This document shows positions 1 to 5,475 of a stretch of 5,475 nucleotides of DNA, piece by piece; within the stretch, counting starts at the first letter, position 1; each line of letters begins with the position of its first letter. The notes beneath the pieces are model-generated. The model did not search any database. It saw only the letters and a list, made by a program, of their open reading frames with translations, and had not been told where the DNA came from. Origin of the DNA: Acidithiobacillus sp. (GTDB lineage Bacteria > Pseudomonadota > Gammaproteobacteria > Acidithiobacillales > Acidithiobacillaceae); contig JAPTWR010000073.1 in NCBI GenBank assembly GCA_028065135.1, forward strand, positions 1-5,475, read 5' to 3'. Made by a program: the position numbers and the translations under genes.

Positions 1-226
1 GGTCGATCAAATTCCGTACGCTGCGTCCCAGGCGATCCAGCTTCCAGACCACCAGCGTATCCCCTGCGCGGAGATCTCCCAGCGCCTGAGTGAGGCCCGG
101 TCGCTCTGCGCGGGCACCGCTGATCTGATCCTCCATGATCTTCTCGCAACCGGCTTTGGTCAGCGCCTCCCTTTGCAGGTCCAGATTTTGGTCCTGGGTG
201 GATACCCGGGCATAACCAATCAGCAT
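1..226 (-). CDS. Serine recombinase (resolvase/DNA invertase family), N-terminal part, cut by window edge
   Basis: This is the first 75 codons of a small serine recombinase, which would break and rejoin DNA at short inverted-repeat sites through a 5'-phosphoserine bond. It opens MLIGYARVSTQDQN, with the nucleophile Ser9 in the YxRVS motif. It continues with DLQREAL, an AGCE segment, EDxxSG and RPGL, and then GDTLVVWKLDRLGRS, the conserved arginine-containing helix of the catalytic domain. By memory this run matches the Gin/Pin/Hin invertase subfamily at least as well as Tn3-type resolvases; the C-terminal DNA-binding domain lies outside the window. The start ATG (224-226) is preceded by a good AGGAG ribosome binding site. 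A hix-like inverted repeat lies about 125 bp upstream, the arrangement expected for an invertase that lies outside its invertible segment. Family is certain; invertase versus resolvase is not. Confidence 0.93.
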   Translation of the reverse strand, partial: MLIGYARVSTQDQNLDLQREALTKAGCEKIMEDQISGARAERPGLTQALGDLRAGDTLVVWKLDRLGRSVRNLID

Positions 227-349
227 GTTTTTCTCCTGACTCTCTCGATATTCATGGTGAAGGTAATGAATCAAGAACTCCATTTCAATACCTGTTTTCG
301 AGAACCATATCCTGTTGATTGTTGGTCATGGCGCCCGTGCCGGATTTTG

Positions 350-377
350 CCTCTCAAAAACCCTCGTTTGTGAGAGG
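350..377. repeat. Hix/gix-like inverted repeat, candidate recombinase crossover site
   Basis: This is a 28-bp imperfect palindrome centred on a 2-bp core, CT at 363-364. The inner 26 bp have the invertase-site layout: a 12-bp half (CTCTCAAAAACC), the 2-bp core, and a 12-bp half (CGTTTGTGAGAG). Compared with the Hin half-site TTATCAAAAACC from memory, the left half matches 10 of 12 and the right half, read on the other strand, 8 of 12. It sits directly upstream of the serine recombinase gene. Recombination activity is inferred. A partner copy is not visible in the window. Confidence 0.55.
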
Positions 378-394
378 TTGTCACAGTGACAACC
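376..394. repeat. Perfect 19-bp palindrome (9-bp arms, 1-bp centre)
   Basis: GGTTGTCAC and GTGACAACC flank a single A. The palindrome shares its first 2 bp with the end of the hix-like repeat. It could be an accessory recombinase-binding site or an operator of the recombinase gene. It lacks a following T-tract, so a rho-independent terminator is unlikely. Confidence 0.5.
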
Positions 395-606
395 ACGGAT
401 TAGACCTTGCCGGTTGGTACGGTGTTGAAGTTGGCCCAGTCTGATCTTCCAGAGGATCTGGATGCTTTTGGTGGCCGGGGATTTTTCCGATATTCTCCGC
501 TGGGTTGCTGGTTCTATTCACAGGGTGGCACACAGAATTTGTGGATGGTTTCCTGCAAGGGTGAAAACCGCCTAATATAGCTTTTAAGTGCCGCATGGTT
601 GGCCGA
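395..606. other. Intergenic stretch without a recognisable gene
   Basis: No open frame here looks like a protein I recognise, and no RNA gene is apparent. The stretch contains only short palindromes (for example CCAGA/TCTGG around 460-472). Near its right end is an AT-rich TAATATAG (573-580), a possible -10 region for the toxin-antitoxin operon, though no convincing -35 box is correctly spaced. It may hold accessory recombination sites. Confidence 0.4.
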
Positions 607-626
607 GTGGGGGCTTAAACCCGCAC
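607..626. promoter_or_regulatory. Operator-like palindrome before the toxin-antitoxin operon
   Basis: A 20-bp imperfect palindrome, GTGGGGGC-TTAA-ACCCGCAC by parts, pairs at 8 of 10 positions. It lies 29 bp before the antitoxin ATG and downstream of the possible -10 region. Antitoxins of this type usually repress their own operon by binding such palindromes, so it is a plausible autoregulatory site. Binding is inferred. Confidence 0.35.
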
Positions 627-655
627 TGATGATCGATACCAGAGGAGTGCCCAGA

Positions 656-844
656 ATGAATGCCGTTTTACCATCTATCATTTCCGAGTTTGAGACCGCC
701 GAGCAGGAGGCCAGCTACACGGCCTGGCTGCAGGCCAAGACTGCCGCTAGCATGGTCGACCCGCGCCCGAGCATCCCGCACGATGAGATTGAGCGGCGCA
801 TGGCCGAGCGACTAGCACGACTCAGACAGCGCAAAGCGTCCTGA
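656..844 (+). CDS. Type II antitoxin (RelB/StbD-like stability determinant)
   Basis: This 62-residue protein should neutralise the toxin encoded immediately downstream and, with it, repress the operon. It starts MNAVLPSIISEFETAEQEAS and continues with a segment resembling YTAWLQAKTAASMVDPRPSIPHDE. That FET/E(E)A, Y..W..AK...S..DPRPS.PHD pattern is typical, from memory, of short 'stability determinant' antitoxins paired with RelE/ParE toxins. The C-terminal third is a charged helix rich in Arg and Glu, probably the toxin-wrapping part. An in-frame ATG exists 57 bp upstream, but ATG 656 is preferred because AGAGGAGT (641-648) is a strong ribosome binding site at proper spacing and the conserved part begins there. 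The stop overlaps the toxin start as TGATG, so the genes are translationally coupled. The exact antitoxin subfamily is less certain than the role. Confidence 0.85.
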   Translation: MNAVLPSIISEFETAEQEASYTAWLQAKTAASMVDPRPSIPHDEIERRMAERLARLRQRKAS

Positions 845-1140
845 TGCTGCCCATCTTCTGGCTTGAGTCTGCCGACGCCGATCTAGCCACTATCATAGAC
901 TACATCGGTCAGTACGATGTAAGTGCAGCCGAACGCCTGTGGGAACGCCTGCGCGTCTGCGTGTTACCACTGTCGGAGCATCCCTACCTGTACCGCATCA
1001 GCGATCGCGTGCCGGGCTTGCGTGAAATCGTCGCGCACCCAAACTACATAGTGCTCTATCGTGTCACGGCCACCTGCATCGAGATCGTGAACGTGGTGCA
1101 TGCCCGCCGTGAGTTCCCGGTTTCAATCCAAAATGAGTAA
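844..1140 (+). CDS. Type II toxin of the RelE/ParE superfamily
   Basis: This 98-residue basic protein has the layout of a RelE/ParE toxin. Two N-terminal helices (S9 to about R37) contain the sequence ADLATIIDYIGQYD. They are followed by a β-sheet with the conserved PGLREIVAHPNYIVLYRV stretch (residues 57-74) and the terminal VHARREFP motif (85-92). These signatures fit the ParE side of the superfamily, whose members poison DNA gyrase, better than the ribosome-dependent mRNase RelE, but the sequence alone does not decide the target. The start is the ATG in the TGATG overlap with the antitoxin stop, with no separate ribosome binding site, so it depends on coupling. The gene is intact. Together with the neighbouring serine recombinase it resembles the recombinase-plus-toxin-antitoxin modules carried by some Tn3-family transposons. 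Confidence 0.92.
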   Translation: MLPIFWLESADADLATIIDYIGQYDVSAAERLWERLRVCVLPLSEHPYLYRISDRVPGLREIVAHPNYIVLYRVTATCIEIVNVVHARREFPVSIQNE

Positions 1141-1145
1141 CCTCA

Positions 1146-1239
1146 TCGTTTTGTCTCAAAATGGCCAGTCACCGGCACCCGGAGAACCCAGCAAAAGCAG
1201 TCCATCCGCCCCGGCCCGCCCATCGGCCAGACAAAACGA
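1146..1239. repeat. 11-bp inverted repeat with 72-bp spacer
   Basis: TCGTTTTGTCT (1146-1156) is repeated perfectly in inverted form as AGACAAAACGA (1229-1239), directly after the toxin gene. The arms are followed inward by different sequence. The minus-strand right arm reads TGTCGTTTTGTCTGG, whose first nine bases equal the start of Tn402-type integron inverted repeats (TGTCGTTTT). It could be a mobile-element end or a long-loop RNA hairpin; there is no T-tract to support a terminator. Confidence 0.45.
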
Positions 1240-1336
1240 CACCAAATGTCTTAACTGGATTGCATTTGCCACATACTGATTGGTATCAAGCGTGAAACCC
1301 ATTTAAGGGTTCCCTCAGACGCGCACATCGCACCAG

Positions 1337-2212
1337 CTAACGCCGGAAACGTGGTGTCCAAGACTCAATCAGCAACTGTTCATCTTCTTCGTCCTCAGCA
1401 TCTGGTAGGAAAATGTTATAAAGCACGGTGAGCGTCTTGCCATAGCTCCCCAAGCCAATTACATCCTCATTAATTTCGATGCTGCGACGGCCACCGAACC
1501 AGTCTTGCAGGTTGGAAGTGCCCTCAATGCGAGCGGCGCATCGCACATTCTCGGCGTCCTGATTAAACGCGAATGTCGTCGTATTGCGTGATATCGCCTC
1601 GCGCTTGCGAATCCAATCAATGCCGGCAACAGTCTTGAGGGCCCCGGATATAAAGCAGTGGTCAATACTGTTGCCAACGCTGAGAATGATCGCCACAGGA
1701 TCGCGCGCGCAATGGGTGTAACGAATGGCTGTAGCGTGCAGGGAGGTCTTGCACAGGGTGGCCAAGGTCTCAACCGCCGCAAGCCCCTCGCCAGAGCTTT
1801 GAAGCTCTGGAAAGAACAAGTGCCTCGGCATGAGGAAGCCTGCGGCGAAGCGGTCCGCCTCCATTTCGTAGCGATCCCTCGACGCAAAGCCTGCCCGTGA
1901 CTCATGAATACCGTTCTCGCCAATCACAGCGTCAACATGGCCAGGCAAAAAGTAGTGCCCCAGCTCGTGGCTAACGCTGAAACGCTGAAATGGCTCGTTG
2001 TCTATGTGGGTCGCGTAGGCGATAGCGAACTCGTTGCCGACACGGATCAGCATTCCAGACACACCGGCGTCGCGCGCTGGTTTAGACACCACTTCAATTT
2101 CACGATTCCGCGCAATGGCGAATGGGTCAATGGGTAGGGTGGTAATGCCCAAACCCTTGATGAGTTGTTCTGCCGCCAGCGACGCAAATGCGTAGGGATC
2201 GGTAAGAATCAT
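1337..2212 (-). CDS. ImmA/IrrE-family metallopeptidase, probable anti-repressor
   Basis: This 291-residue protein belongs to the ImmA/IrrE zinc peptidase family, whose characterised members (ICEBs1 ImmA, Deinococcus IrrE) cleave a partner XRE repressor after stress. The zinc motif HELGH is at residues 82-86 (His82, Glu83, His86). The second conserved block EMEADRFAAGFLMP (116-129) supplies the likely third ligand, Glu118. The N-terminal part (residues 25-70) has the usual β-rich lead-in, with DPFAIA near 29-34. The C-terminal half has a segment GLGSYGKTLTVLY and an acidic stretch (271-278) before the end; its role is unknown. Its ATG overlaps the stop of the XRE gene (ATGA, 2209-2212), so the two are co-translated. 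The natural target is that XRE protein, which probably controls both this operon and the divergent ubiquitin-like operon. The regulatory target is inferred. Confidence 0.93.
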   Translation of the reverse strand: MILTDPYAFASLAAEQLIKGLGITTLPIDPFAIARNREIEVVSKPARDAGVSGMLIRVGNEFAIAYATHIDNEPFQRFSVSHELGHYFLPGHVDAVIGENGIHESRAGFASRDRYEMEADRFAAGFLMPRHLFFPELQSSGEGLAAVETLATLCKTSLHATAIRYTHCARDPVAIILSVGNSIDHCFISGALKTVAGIDWIRKREAISRNTTTFAFNQDAENVRCAARIEGTSNLQDWFGGRRSIEINEDVIGLGSYGKTLTVLYNIFLPDAEDEEDEQLLIESWTPRFRR

Positions 2213-2568
2213 TTCTTGCCGGAACCACGCACGGCGGCCTTGCCAGCAAGGTGCGTTATCAGTGCATCGGCGAACTTGCGATCAACCTCCTGTAGGGCAT
2301 CGTAGTGGCGATGCAATTTATCAGCTCCAGCCAGCTCCTTGAACTCAGCAACCCGCCCGAGCAGATAGTCCGTGGTCACATCAAGCGTGTCGGCAAGAAG
2401 GCGAAGGTTATCGAACGACGGCTTGCGCGTGCCCGTCTCGAAGTGCGATATCGCAGAGGGCTGCAGGCCAGCATGCTCCGCCAACTCACTCTGGGTGAGG
2501 CCGCGATATTCTCGCGCGCACCGAAGACGGTAAGGAAAGATAGTAGACGGGGAACTTGACTCGGACAT
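2209..2568 (-). CDS. XRE-family helix-turn-helix repressor
   Basis: This 119-residue regulator has a Cro/CI-type HTH domain at about residues 14-71. It contains RLRCAREYRGLTQSELAEHA, the recognition-helix region LQPSAISHFETGTRKPS, and the closing LADTLDVTTDYLLGR. The remaining 48 residues are charged and helical and may mediate dimerisation or presentation to the protease. A ribosome binding site GGAG lies 8 bp before the ATG. It overlaps the ImmA-type gene by ATGA, the standard repressor/anti-repressor arrangement of mobile elements. The divergent promoter region next to it holds three TGACGA-based palindromic sites that fit autorepression and control of the plus-strand operon. DNA binding is certain by family; the operators are inferred. 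Confidence 0.95.
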   Translation of the reverse strand: MSESSSPSTIFPYRLRCAREYRGLTQSELAEHAGLQPSAISHFETGTRKPSFDNLRLLADTLDVTTDYLLGRVAEFKELAGADKLHRHYDALQEVDRKFADALITHLAGKAAVRGSGKK

Positions 2569-2589
2569 TACGACTCCGTATTATTTAAA

Positions 2590-2605
2590 ATGACGACTTA
2601 GTCAT
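2590..2605. promoter_or_regulatory. Operator-like palindrome 1, next to the XRE gene
   Basis: ATGACGACTTAGTCAT is an imperfect palindrome with 5-bp perfect outer arms. Its core TGACGACTTAGTCA is the same type as the perfect site at 2639-2652. It lies 22 bp from the XRE start, where its promoter should be (AT-rich 2580-2590), so binding would autorepress. Confidence 0.55.
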
Positions 2606-2624
2606 GGCCCGTTTGGGCCTTTTG
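2606..2624 (+). terminator. Short terminator-like hairpin within the divergent region
   Basis: GGCCC and GGGCC form a 5-bp GC stem around GTTT, followed by TTTTG on the plus strand. This could stop plus-strand transcripts entering from the XRE/ImmA side before they reach the ubiquitin-like operon. The stem is short and the T-tract weak, so this is tentative. Confidence 0.35.
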
Positions 2625-2638
2625 TTGACCTGTGATTT

Positions 2639-2652
2639 TGACGAATTCGTCA
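2639..2652. promoter_or_regulatory. Operator-like palindrome 2, perfect TGACGAATTCGTCA
   Basis: This perfect 14-bp palindrome sits in the middle of the divergent region. It differs from site 1 only in the central and one arm position and shares the half-site TGACGA with sites 1 and 3. It is the best candidate for the XRE binding site; it lies within possible promoter elements for the plus-strand operon. Confidence 0.62.
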
Positions 2653-2659
2653 TATTTTA

Positions 2660-2672
2660 CATGACGATCATG
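2660..2672. promoter_or_regulatory. Operator-like palindrome 3 before the multiubiquitin gene
   Basis: CATGACGATCATG has 5-bp arms around CGA and contains the TGACGA half-site at 2662-2667. It lies 26 bp before the multiubiquitin ATG, likely over the transcription start. It is weaker than site 2 because the second half lacks TCGTCA. Confidence 0.4.
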
Positions 2673-2698
2673 GCTCAATCAACCAGAAAGGAAAGAAA

Positions 2699-3178
2699 AT
2701 GGCCAACGTTCAAGTACAAGATGAAACCAAGCACCATGTGCGGATTCATATCGACCAACAGCCGTATGAGTCCCCCAGCCCAACAACTGGCGAAGCACTG
2801 TACCTGCTGGGCAGGGTGCAGATAGATCTGGAACTTTTTCGGGAAGTAAGCGGTGATAAGGAAGACGCGGTGGTACCGAACGGTCCGGGAATTGTGTATC
2901 TGAAGGAGGATGAGCATTTCCATAGCGGTCCACCTGAGGTAAGGCACTTCGATATTTTTATCAACGGCCGAAAAAAAGTGGTGACGACGCCGGAGTTGTC
3001 GTTCAACGAACTCGTGGCACTGGCTTTCGATCCAGTACCAACTGGTCCGAACATCATGTTCACAATTACTTATCGGCATGGTCCGCATACAAACCCTGAA
3101 GGGAATTTGCTGGAAGGGGGCACAGTCAAGATCAAAGACGGGATGGTTTTCAATGTCACACCAACTGATAAGTCATAG
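2699..3178 (+). CDS. Multiubiquitin-domain protein (tandem ubiquitin-like)
   Basis: This 159-residue protein contains two ubiquitin-like β-grasp repeats and matches my memory of the 'multiubiquitin' family. Repeat 1 spans about residues 12-77 (opening HHVRIHIDQQPYES, containing GEALYLLGRV). Repeat 2 spans about 82-155 (opening RHFDIFINGRKKVV, containing SFNELVALAF, then MFTITYRHG and a closing GGTVKIKDGMVFNVT). Each repeat begins with a β-hairpin followed by the helix pattern expected of ubiquitin. The protein ends FNVTPTDKS, with no C-terminal diglycine, so transfer would need processing or a different end chemistry. ATG 2699 follows a good AAGGA ribosome binding site (2688-2692). The gene overlaps the E1-like gene by 26 bp and leads the operon, so it is the likely substrate of that enzyme. 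Conjugation and targets are inferred. Confidence 0.88.
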   Translation: MANVQVQDETKHHVRIHIDQQPYESPSPTTGEALYLLGRVQIDLELFREVSGDKEDAVVPNGPGIVYLKEDEHFHSGPPEVRHFDIFINGRKKVVTTPELSFNELVALAFDPVPTGPNIMFTITYRHGPHTNPEGNLLEGGTVKIKDGMVFNVTPTDKS

Positions 3179-4334
3179 CCCCGATCTGAAAAGGCTCCGC
3201 GACGAAGGCTATGACCTGGCAATCCAGTCCGGCTATTTGCTGGTCAAGGATGTTCCATACGTGAACGCCCGTCGGGAGGTCACGCGCGGGATTCTCGTCT
3301 CGACGCTGACGCTGGCAGGCGATGACACGACAACGCCGGACAACCATGTCGCCTATTTTGTCGGGGATCATCCATGCCGCCAGGATGGCATGGAGATCGA
3401 CCAGATCAAGAACTCTGGCGGCGGGAAGGCCCTTGCCGAGGGTCTTGTCGTAAACCATACGTTTTCAGCAAGGCCGCGCGATCCCTATCCCGATTACTAC
3501 GCAAAGATGACGACATATGTGGCTATTCTAGAGGGACAGGCGCAGGCGATTGACCCCGTGGCCACAGCGAGAACTTTCCCGGTCATCGAACCGGAGAAGG
3601 AGGATGAGACGGTATTCAACTACATTGACACCGCATCGAGCCGGGCGGAAATTGATCTTATTACCAAGAAATTGGCGATACAGAAGATCGCCATTGTGGG
3701 GCTCGGCGGAACCGGAGCCTACGTGCTGGACCTTGTCGCCAAGACCACCGTCAATGAGATTCACCTATTCGACGGAGACATATTTTTGCAGCACAATGCG
3801 TTTCGATCACCGGGTGCACCGTCAATCGAGGAACTGAGGGTGAAGCCGAGCAAGGTGGCCTATCTGCAGGGTATCTATGCGAAGATGCGGCGTGGCATTA
3901 TGGTCCACGCGGACTATGTCGGTGCTGAAAATGTCGGACTGCTGCGGGACATGCAATTCGTATTTCTCTGCCTCGATCGCGGTACCGCCAAAAAGTTGAT
4001 CGTCGAGATGCTGGAGGAATTCGGTATCCCTTTCATTGATGTGGGCATGGGCGTCTACGCGACCGATAATATGCTCGGCGGCGTTCTCAGGGTCACAGTT
4101 AGTTCGCCAGAGCAGCGTGATCACTTTCGAAGCCGGGTGCCTTTCTCTGACGGCGATGGCCACAATGAATATGCGGTCAACATCCAGATTGCCGATCTCA
4201 ATGCGTTGAATGCCGCTTTGGCGGTCATTAAATGGAAAAAGCTGTTCGGGTTCTATCTGGACCTTGACCGCGAGCATCATTGCACATACACCGTCGACGG
4301 AAACACTCTAACAAATTCAGATTGGCGGCTATGA
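3153..4334 (+). CDS. E1-like ThiF adenylyltransferase with N-terminal DUF6791-type domain
   Basis: This 393-residue protein should adenylate the C terminus of a ubiquitin-like protein, as E1, ThiF and MoeB do. The Rossmann E1-like domain starts near residue 175 with IVGLGGTG (GxGxxG, 181-188). It continues with LFDGD (Asp207/Asp209), Asn215, Arg218, Lys234 and CLDRG (273-277, Asp275), all in the order of ThiF family ATP-binding residues. The first 170 residues form a separate domain I associate with DUF6791, with HSPDLKRL near the start, GDHPC (Cys75) and the FSA, DYYAKMTTY segment. Cysteines are only Cys75, Cys273 and Cys377, so any thioester would use one of them. Start 3153 is chosen because an upstream in-frame ATG (3078) would add 25 residues read from the multiubiquitin gene. 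The stop overlaps the next gene by ATGA. This places it as the activating enzyme of the three-gene operon. Confidence 0.87.
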   Translation: MSHQLISHSPDLKRLRDEGYDLAIQSGYLLVKDVPYVNARREVTRGILVSTLTLAGDDTTTPDNHVAYFVGDHPCRQDGMEIDQIKNSGGGKALAEGLVVNHTFSARPRDPYPDYYAKMTTYVAILEGQAQAIDPVATARTFPVIEPEKEDETVFNYIDTASSRAEIDLITKKLAIQKIAIVGLGGTGAYVLDLVAKTTVNEIHLFDGDIFLQHNAFRSPGAPSIEELRVKPSKVAYLQGIYAKMRRGIMVHADYVGAENVGLLRDMQFVFLCLDRGTAKKLIVEMLEEFGIPFIDVGMGVYATDNMLGGVLRVTVSSPEQRDHFRSRVPFSDGDGHNEYAVNIQIADLNALNAALAVIKWKKLFGFYLDLDREHHCTYTVDGNTLTNSDWRL

Positions 4335-4780
4335 CACAGCAAATGATGCTTGCACACGAATTCGTTGAGTTCGTTCCGGATGAACTAAATGAAGGAACGC
4401 TTTACATCTGTATCGGGCTCGCGACGGTCGTTCACAAGTGCTGTTGCGGATGCGGAAACGAAGTTGTGACCCCACTGAGTCCCACAGATTGGAACCTGAC
4501 TTTCGACGGCAAGACAATCACGCTGCACCCGTCGATCGGGAATTGGGGATTTTATTGCCAGTCTCACTACTGGATCAGCAATAACAGGGTCAAATGGGCA
4601 GCACAATGGTCTCAAGAGCAGGTCAAAGTGGGCAGGGTTCACGATCGATTGGCGAAGGACAGATATTTCGGCGCAGGTGATCTGCAGAAATCGTCAGAGT
4701 CAGAGATAGCTGAGACAATGAAAACAACCTCTACGGGAAAGGGAATATGGCGGAAGCTAAAGAAGTGGTGGTCATGGTGA
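4331..4780 (+). CDS. DUF6527-type protein with probable zinc site
   Basis: The 149-residue protein resembles the DUF6527 family, recalled as an associate of ThiF/multiubiquitin genes; no biochemical activity is established that I know of. The conserved block is HKCCCGCGNEVVTPLSP (36-51), followed by a W..FDGKTITLHPSIGNW region (54-72) and CQSHYWISNN (76-85). Cys37/38/39/41 together with Cys76 and His79 make a probable zinc-binding knuckle pair, which may organise a protein- or ubiquitin-binding surface. The C-terminal 40 residues are polar and then end in the basic-aromatic GIWRKLKKWWSW, which looks like a lipid- or nucleic-acid-contacting tail and is not part of the conserved block. ATG 4331 is used because it forms ATGA with the stop of the E1-like gene. 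Alternatives upstream are unlikely since they would read into that gene. Function is unknown; an adaptor, E2/E3-like or effector role is speculative. Confidence 0.78.
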   Translation: MTQQMMLAHEFVEFVPDELNEGTLYICIGLATVVHKCCCGCGNEVVTPLSPTDWNLTFDGKTITLHPSIGNWGFYCQSHYWISNNRVKWAAQWSQEQVKVGRVHDRLAKDRYFGAGDLQKSSESEIAETMKTTSTGKGIWRKLKKWWSW

Positions 4781-4811
4781 ATTCCATTTAGGGGGTATAC
4801 GCTGGGACTCC

Positions 4812-5216
4812 TTATATGCTACGGATGCGATCTGCCAAGGATTCAAGGGCTGCCTGGCTTCGCGTTTCACATTCCCAAATCGCCAAGACTTTCCAGCCGG
4901 CAGCTTCCAGTGCTAACCGTTGGCGCTCATCGCGAGCGACGTTCCCATCGAGCTTTTGAGACCAGTAGTCTGTGCGGGAGCGCGGCCGCGAAGCGGCAGG
5001 GCAACTAGGATGCTGATGCCAGAAACAGCCGTGCACGAACAGGGCAATGCGTCGGCCAGGGAATACTAGGTCTGGGACGCCAGGTAGTCGGCGGTCATGA
5101 AGGCGGAAGCGGAGGCCTGCGGCATGAAGAAAACGCCGTACGATCATTTCAGGCCCGGTATCGCGGGAGCGCACAGCTCGCATGGTGCGGCTGCGCTGCT
5201 CCGGCGTTTCGATCAT
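4812..5216 (-). CDS. vsr: Very short patch repair (Vsr) mismatch endonuclease
   Basis: This 134-residue protein is a Vsr-family endonuclease, which nicks DNA 5' of the T in T:G mismatches that arise when 5-methylcytosine deaminates. The N terminus carries TPEQRSRTMRAVRSRDT. The catalytic metal-binding Asp is in LPGVPDLVF (Asp49, equal to Asp51 of the E. coli enzyme). The HGCFWHQHP block (62-70) and Cys72 and Cys116 (WEC) supply the structural zinc ligands. The position matching E. coli Thr63 is Val61 here, a small departure. Length is slightly less than E. coli Vsr (about 156), with the missing part at the C terminus. The ATG overlaps the stop of the preceding truncated gene (ATGA), so expression is coupled to a broken partner and may be reduced. 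No cytosine methyltransferase partner is seen. It converges with the ubiquitin-like operon, 31 bp from its end. Confidence 0.93.
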   Translation of the reverse strand: MIETPEQRSRTMRAVRSRDTGPEMIVRRFLHAAGLRFRLHDRRLPGVPDLVFPGRRIALFVHGCFWHQHPSCPAASRPRSRTDYWSQKLDGNVARDERQRLALEAAGWKVLAIWECETRSQAALESLADRIRSI

Positions 5217-5349
5217 TGGCGAAACTCAATCTTCAAACTGGGGTCGGTTTCGACCTCTTCCACGATTTCGTTGTATCGTGTCACCAAGTCGCTCACTGCA
5301 ACCCGCCGACCTTCGGCCGCGAACTTGCCCAGTTCGTATAGATTGATGG
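5213..5349 (-). pseudogene. C-terminal stub of a gene interrupted by the IS3-family element
   Basis: The last 45 or so codons of a host gene survive; the first complete host residues read INLYELGKFAAEGRR and the end is SLKIEFRQ. It is followed through an ATGA overlap by vsr. Reading continues without a stop into the IS left end as far as an ATG at 5399-5401, giving a chimeric 62-residue frame whose first 17 or so residues are insertion sequence; there is no convincing ribosome binding site for it, so expression is doubtful. The original gene is unknown. In Vsr operons an ATPase, a Z1 or PD-(D/E)XK or AIPR protein, or a methyltransferase would be possible partners, but the stub is too short to choose. 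Confidence 0.6.
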
Positions 5350-5475
5350 TGAACCGCCCCGGATTTTGAGGAGGCTCCTTTTTCCAAGAGAATGGAGCCA
5401 TGATGAACAAAGCTAAAACACCCAAATATTCCCCTGAAGTTCGCGAACGCGCGGTGCGCATGGTGCAGGAACACC
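5350..5475 (+). mobile_element. IS3-family insertion sequence, left end, cut by window edge
   Basis: TGAACCGCCCC at 5350 starts a sequence I associate with the terminal inverted repeat of an IS3-family group. It lies 53 bp before a typical OrfA start. The element opens within the gene before vsr. The right end and any 3-bp target duplication (candidate 5347-5349) are outside the window or cannot be tested. Confidence 0.75.
5403..5475 (+). CDS. IS3-family transposase OrfA, N-terminal part, cut by window edge
   Basis: The first 24 codons read MNKAKTPKYSPEVRERAVRM and onward, the usual start of the DNA-binding OrfA protein of IS3-family elements; the KYSPEVRERAVRMV segment is the beginning of its helix-turn-helix domain. 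GGAG (5394-5397) sits 5 bp before the ATG as ribosome binding site. In complete elements OrfA is followed by OrfB, which carries the DDE catalytic domain, and the two are joined by frameshifting. Neither the rest of OrfA nor OrfB is in view, so intactness cannot be judged. Confidence 0.9.
   Translation, partial: MNKAKTPKYSPEVRERAVRMVQEH

Follow-up and report, generated by a model that had tools for sequence, protein, structure and literature searches.

Can a ubiquitin-like protein serve as a protein tag when it carries no C-terminal glycine and its E1-like partner no conserved crossover cysteine? The hallmark of ubiquitin and its relatives is a glycine at the C-terminus, which an E1 hands on to a cysteine. 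The question is raised by a three-gene operon located within a 5,475-nucleotide stretch of an Acidithiobacillus sp. assembly (GCA_028065135.1, contig JAPTWR010000073.1, positions 1 to 5,475; here denoted the window). The initial annotation described three overlapping plus-strand genes, joined by a 26-bp overlap and then an ATGA, encoding a two-repeat ubiquitin-like protein (Ubl), a ThiF-fold adenylyltransferase with an extra N-terminal domain (here denoted E1) and a Cys/His-rich protein. The coordinates were confirmed (Table 1), the second overlap comprising the 4 nt ATGA at 4331-4334; the extra domain is DUF6791, and the third protein belongs to DUF6527 and has four invariant ligands. With moderate confidence we assign the locus to a branch of bacterial polyubiquitin-like operons marked by DUF6791 (DUF6791-type), a sister to the JAB-containing Bub operons, which would be induced by damage and would activate a ready-made, non-glycine tag. 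We add three observations: the 26-nt overlap is constant, the Ubl ends in serine where JAB-type relatives have glycine, and the E1 has an invariant tyrosine without a crossover cysteine. The initial annotation was silent on exact overlap conservation, on the missing C-terminal glycine, on the tyrosine-type E1 and on a CapH/CapP-like gene pair beside the operon. A widespread family in which the E1 keeps its ATP site while both the terminal glycine and the conserved crossover cysteine are gone would show that Ubl tagging can run on other chemistry, with three genes only.

The initial annotation had staked its reading on co-conservation of the three genes, and a neighbourhood survey bore this out. 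Scanning genome contigs yielded 47 related loci, all 47 with DUF6527 after the E1 and 41 with the Ubl before it; the six loci with no upstream Ubl lie at a contig end (L011, L040, L046) or carry a truncated E1 (L038, L039, L045). The loci span Acidobacteria, Nitrospirae, Proteobacteria, Bacteroidetes, Actinobacteria, Firmicutes, Chloroflexi, Patescibacteria, an archaeal assembly and others. Among 398 evenly drawn Pseudomonadota genomes, 8 gave a DUF6791 match; one is the centre genome, which was chosen for having it, and the trio is complete in all other seven. An E1 relative is encoded in 118 of 72,556 plasmid records, and annotation showed the trio in all seven inspected of these 118. No match was found in 50,697 phage records; a scan confined to two peptide patterns turned up six IMG/VR contigs that encode a relative. 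The part list is as reduced as first described: neither E2 nor JAB was matched in the ten window proteins (Pfam) or in the window reading frames (purpose-built models). The purpose-built models also found neither near the trio in 4,136 open reading frames (ORFs) of the 47 loci and the window, except in locus L014, and a scan for the JAMM motif returned chance-like matches and the L014 gene only. Likewise, neither was found in 7/7 DUF6791-type plasmid loci. Genome-wide, Prok-JAB occurs in 29 of 40 genomes, a count that is uninformative on the operon. In L014, the archaeal assembly, a DUF6791-type trio lies about 2 kb from JAB-E1 and Prok-E2_E genes on the other strand (7742-9507 and 11571-13366).

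The initial annotation had named beforehand a structure prediction showing no β-grasp repeats in the first protein as grounds for giving up its reading. Pfam finds one Multi_ubiq domain, at residues 84-157. In a 36-sequence profile, Ubl positions 10-158 align with residues 75-222 of 9cd2, a solved multi-ubiquitin protein of 222 residues, which supports, at the level of sequence, two repeats of which the first is degenerate. Judged by length, many Ubl relatives have one domain and some have three. The protein ends in VTPTDKS, with no C-terminal glycine and a T-x-x-S tail after the last strand; 9cd2 ends in the same TDKS tail. Serine is the last Ubl residue in 59/59 DUF6791-type loci, window included, and in 119 of the 120 homologues listed (of 927), none of which ends in glycine. 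In contrast, 15 of the 16 JAB-type Ubl tails, compared by eye, carry a glycine at the corresponding position: in four it is the final residue, in four it stands one or two residues earlier, and in seven it precedes a fused E2; the remaining tail has none. In the Citrobacter braakii Ubl this glycine is residue 229, which matches the end number of the BubA(155-229) construct named in PDB titles. We also noticed a natural Ubl-E1 fusion, a database protein of 491 aa with four member sequences (P0170). Its join loses the conserved Ubl tail, making a frameshift or an assembly error equally likely, and it was set aside as a functional clue.

The serine codon lies within the overlap with the E1 gene. 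In 57 of 59 loci, drawn from several phyla, the stretch from the E1 start codon to the last base of the Ubl stop codon measures exactly 26 nt. These 59 comprise the window, 41 genome loci, 7 plasmid loci, 7 genome draws and 3 IMG/VR contigs; in the draws and viral contigs the 26-nt arrangement was sought near the E1 start and genes were not called blindly. Two loci (L027, L060) have no start codon at the usual place, yet the serine is kept. Across 57 loci the terminal codon is always TCN (TCG 29, TCA 17, TCT 8, TCC 3), and the E1 residue sharing its bases is R, H, L or P. The free third base together with the variable E1 residue indicates that selection acts on the Ubl residue. In the literature searched we recognised no mention of the serine tail or the 26-nt overlap; Gong 2025 and Ye 2026, the likeliest sources, lay outside that search.

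In the E1, Pfam places DUF6791 at residues 10-160 (1.1e-58) and ThiF at 171-300 (3.9e-11), with the fold covering about 164-393; the NCBIfam name for the family is only 'hypothetical protein'. The residues of the ATP site are present in the sequence. The crossover cysteine is not conserved, and CxxC-type cysteine columns occur in 0/75 DUF6791-type E1s. Tyr340 is invariant in 75/75, with an aligned tyrosine in 15 of 16 JAB-type E1s. The E1 model (predicted local distance difference test score, pLDDT, 90.7) gave BubCD as its best solved match in Foldseek, with MccB and PaaA also matched; in the VIA structural matches ThiF stands level with BubCD, and ThiF and MoeB are among the top. These fold searches are dominated by the ThiF part, so that the DUF6791 fold was barely probed. 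The ThiF and MoeB matches and the ThiF fold itself would fit a ThiS/ThiF-type sulfur-carrier pair, with an E1 that converts the C-terminus of the Ubl to a thiocarboxylate. We consider this very improbable, since the Ubl has no Gly-Gly tail, the E1s lack the CxxC-type columns, and no rhodanese or sulfur family is among the 25 commonest neighbour families listed (the scan covered 115 of the 128 ORFs upstream and 98 of the 129 downstream, picked under a longest-ORF rule, those omitted being mostly short).

The same fold matches bear on whether the Ubl is conjugated at all. The Ubl could instead be a non-covalent filament or scaffold unit, with an E1 that only makes Ubl-adenylate or a small, MccB-like modification of the tail. 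The missing glycine tail, E2 and JAB fit this account, as do the matches to MccB and PaaA, E1-like enzymes that act on non-ubiquitin peptides. The peptide that MccB modifies ends in Asn, and three-domain bacterial Ubls reportedly form filaments. However, the nearest E1 fold is BubCD, which according to PDB titles was solved in complex with a Ubl partner, and the tyrosine common to the JAB branch suggests shared transfer chemistry. We regard an unconjugated Ubl as unlikely.

The predicted elements of the DUF6791 domain (helix, four strands, two strands, helix) agree with Prok-E2_E in number and order and are colinear. The hhalign score between the two, 14.2, was matched by 17 of 150 column-shuffled and 33 of 150 block-shuffled decoys, and unrelated controls scored alike (DUF6527 14.9, reversed Prok-E2_E 13.5, Multi_ubiq 12.6, JAB 11.2), whereas the positive control within Prok-E2_E scored 93.2. 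At default settings 70 columns align, and 107-113 columns do so under looser parameters, which were applied to the decoys as well. A long near-diagonal alignment was given by only 1 of 300 decoys. A fused E2 of the Prok-E2_E/RWD kind, with a score not above decoys and unrelated controls, was therefore kept only as an idea, and derivation from JAB (11.2) is unsupported.

In the DUF6527 protein, C37, C41, C76 and H79 are invariant in 71 aligned sequences, and the pattern C37-x3-C41-x34-C76-x2-H79 recurs in all 120 homologues listed (of 3415). The model (pLDDT 84.2) is confident in its core, residues 11-110 (block means at least 87), but had no PDB match at E<=0.001, and its VIA rows cover mostly the C-terminal helix. 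As modelled, the fold is neither placed nor demonstrably new.

Next to the operon, and divergent from it, lie a helix-turn-helix (HTH) gene and an M78 peptidase gene with HEXXH, in the layout of CapH-CapP. Because the pair scores as CapH/CapP, DNA-damage control of the operon is likely, and the CapP-like metallopeptidase is predicted to inactivate the CapH-like repressor. Such control would link the locus to stress and mobile-element biology. A palindrome pattern (at most two mismatches), composed after the site was seen, gave five matches, namely both strands of two palindromes and one at 2115; 200 shuffles gave a mean of 0.66 and none reached five. Scanning 2500-2760 for promoter elements returned three sigma-70-like sites (shuffle mean 0.4) and two terminator-like sites, one of which is the 2639-2652 palindrome; none of these sites was used as evidence. 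Around 44 related loci, the 115 upstream ORFs include 21 M78 peptidases, 20 PADLOC capP and 11 capH matches. According to a 2016 Toxins article (PMC4963859), 70% of PF14452 proteins adjoin COG2856 loci, and HTH+COG2856 pairs stand beside Multi_ubiq genes. On that article's reading the HTH and metallopeptidase would be a toxin-antitoxin module stabilising the cassette, not a damage switch. We find this rather improbable here: the pair matches the capP and capH profiles (Table 1), it is divergent at the operon's promoter region with its two operator-like palindromes, and a 2026 EMBO J article (PMC13373217) states that CapH+CapP controls adjacent operons upon DNA damage. By its count, CapW or CapH+CapP adjoins 219 of 544 Bub operons; it describes phage protection by Bub operons as not shown so far.

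Long Ubls (~245-250 aa) in five loci (L048, L049, L050, L062, L063) adjoin a UvrD-family helicase module, not CapH/CapP; its small genes are sigma-factor-like, regulator-like or hypothetical. A JAB-type locus, L052, has an ATP-dependent helicase at the same place.

Putting these elements in order, we infer the following events. A CapH-like repressor would hold the operon off through palindromes in the 130-bp divergent promoter region until DNA damage activates the CapP-like protease and the repressor is removed, as in the characterised CapH/CapP pair. Translation of the overlapping genes would be coupled, and the Ubl would be made with its final T-x-x-S tail fixed by the stop codon, so that no JAB would be needed for trimming. 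The E1 would bind ATP and adenylate the C-terminal end of the Ubl. Since it has no conserved crossover cysteine, the acceptor of the acyl group would be an oxygen nucleophile, with Tyr340 as the leading candidate, or else Cys75 in its DUF6791 domain. DUF6527 may be a zinc adaptor or ligase-like factor that picks the target. The locus may likewise conjugate its Ubl and act in phage defence. A more specific version, which we hold only tentatively and rate as doubtful, is a self-contained ligation system: a ribosome-finished serine tag, a tyrosine-oxyester E1 whose fused, divergent E2-like DUF6791 lets it both activate and transfer, a DUF6527 zinc adaptor, and a frozen 26-nt overlap fixing the end of the tag without a protease.

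Several points weigh against a damage-induced, serine-ended tag. Ubls normally have glycine at the end, and adenylation of a serine C-terminus is unproven. AGY never encodes the terminal serine, and part of the constraint may therefore come from the E1 frame that overlaps it. The equivalence of Tyr340 with residue 370 of the C. braakii BubCD homologue is a sequence alignment across loops of unequal length, with no superposed coordinates, and an earlier alignment set residue 370 opposite a gap. The DUF6791 and DUF6527 families have no assigned activity. Nor is a CapP-type gene universal: of the 41 loci with 1.5 kb or more of upstream sequence, 24 have an ORF with HEXXH in it, and a UvrD-helicase module replaces the CapP-type gene in 5 of 7 sampled DUF6791-type plasmid loci. 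A serine-ended tag with neither a separate E2 nor a trimming enzyme nearby would be well suited to testing whether proteins can be tagged in unusual ways, and two purified proteins would make it directly tractable in vitro.

Table 1. Features of the operon and of its divergent regulatory region, in window coordinates.
Feature	Position	Strand	Basis
Multi_ubiq gene: two-domain ubiquitin-like protein (Ubl), 159 aa	2699..3178	+	PF14452 3.6e-19; profile vs 9cd2 7.4e-30
E1-like adenylyltransferase, 393 aa from ATG at 3153: DUF6791 + ThiF fold	3153..4334	+	PF20590, PF00899
DUF6527 zinc-type protein, 149 aa	4331..4780	+	PF20137 4.8e-26
26-nt overlap of Ubl tail and E1 start, two reading frames	3153..3178	+	
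Conserved Ubl C-terminal tail T-x-T-D-K-S and stop codon	3158..3178	+	
E1 Tyr340 codon	4170..4172	+	
CapP-like metallopeptidase (M78/ImmA-IrrE, HELGH motif)	1337..2212	-	PF06114 1e-10; PADLOC capP 8.2e-56; HELGH in translation
CapH-like HTH repressor, divergent from operon	2209..2568	-	HTH_3 1.1e-14; PADLOC capH 1.3e-19
Operator-like 16-bp palindrome ATGACGACTTAGTCAT, between repressor gene and operon	2590..2605	.	function inferred
Second operator-like palindrome TTGACGAATTCGTCAT	2638..2653	.	function inferred

The closest named relatives of all three proteins come from a Gallionellaceae metagenome assembly (71-83% identity). To the left of the CapP-like gene are a RelB/PaaA2-type antitoxin (656-844, +) and a ParE-type toxin (844-1140, +), and the N-terminal part of a serine resolvase (2-283, -; 4.4e-25) is cut by the window edge. 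Convergent with the operon is a Vsr mismatch endonuclease (4812-5216, -; TIGR00632 1.4e-42), adjoined by a possible remnant of a DUF4928 protein, a minus-strand ORF within 5213-5475 that covers the last 41 positions of DUF4928 only (9.4e-4, below the cut-off). A plus-strand frame from 5401, overlapping this ORF, resembles the start of an IS3-type transposase. The reading as a Ubl-modification module was partly supported: the module is reduced and co-conserved, and its neighbourhood is of mobile or defence type, but a defence function is unproven and the layout is not new.

It corresponds to type 6e, variant b, of Iyer et al. 2006 (Genome Biol, PMC1779556), the polyUbl variant with a different E1 N-terminal domain in place of JAB. 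There, a Ubl of one to three repeats accompanies an E1 with 'domain X' and a metal-binding protein Y, and for such zinc proteins an E3-like adaptor role was proposed. The window encodes a Ubl within the range of one to three beta-grasp repeats (PF14452; near-full 9cd2 alignment), an E1 whose N-terminal domain is not JAB (DUF6791 + ThiF) and, as protein Y, the Cys/His-containing DUF6527; from the paper's description, domain X would be DUF6791. The published zinc pattern, C-x3-C-x35-38-H-x2-C, is not literally that of DUF6527, C-x3-C-x34-C-x2-H, and the window has no RWD/E2-like gene. The gene set is real and well conserved, and it was described before.

The Bub pathway (Citrobacter BubA/BubB/BubCD, PDB 9ea4-9eav) shares with the window a BubCD-type E1, by fold and tyrosine. 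It differs in having a JAB (BubD), fused or adjacent, where the window has DUF6791, an E2/RWD-like Prok-E2_E (BubB), of which no separate copy was matched in the window, and a BubA with glycine at its mature C-terminus, as far as that end can be inferred, where the window Ubl ends in serine; the window-type E1s have no CxxC-type columns, and in the Citrobacter JAB-type locus the Ubl and E1 genes overlap by 4 nt, not 26. JAB-type loci carry Multi_ubiq, JAB-E1 (JAB model in 16/16, weakly in L059) and Prok-E2_E, either as its own gene or fused (matched by the model in 15 of the 16, the exception being L059); annotation shows DUF6527 in 13 of them. The absence of the JAB and E2 features places the locus as a sister branch; the E1 tree, which is unrooted, separates the DUF6791-type and JAB-type sets with support 1.0. 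Within the JAB-type set, a Rhodococcus plasmid operon (L085) lacks the E1 tyrosine, the glycine tail and an annotated DUF6527 together, and a phosphotransferase-family gene stands between JAB-E1 and DUF6527 in L056 (4734-6338) and L083 (3777-5225).

CBASS Cap2/Bil systems have an E1-like activation module in common with the operon; the PADLOC E1-E2 matches are weak (best 2.6e-07), and the window proteins scanned contained no CD-NTase, E2 or JAB. The regulatory pair resembles known CapH-CapP pairs in profile scores and divergent placement, and here adjoins a ubiquitin-like operon, not CBASS. The window is a further locus of the Iyer 6e kind, with probable CapH/CapP-type control.
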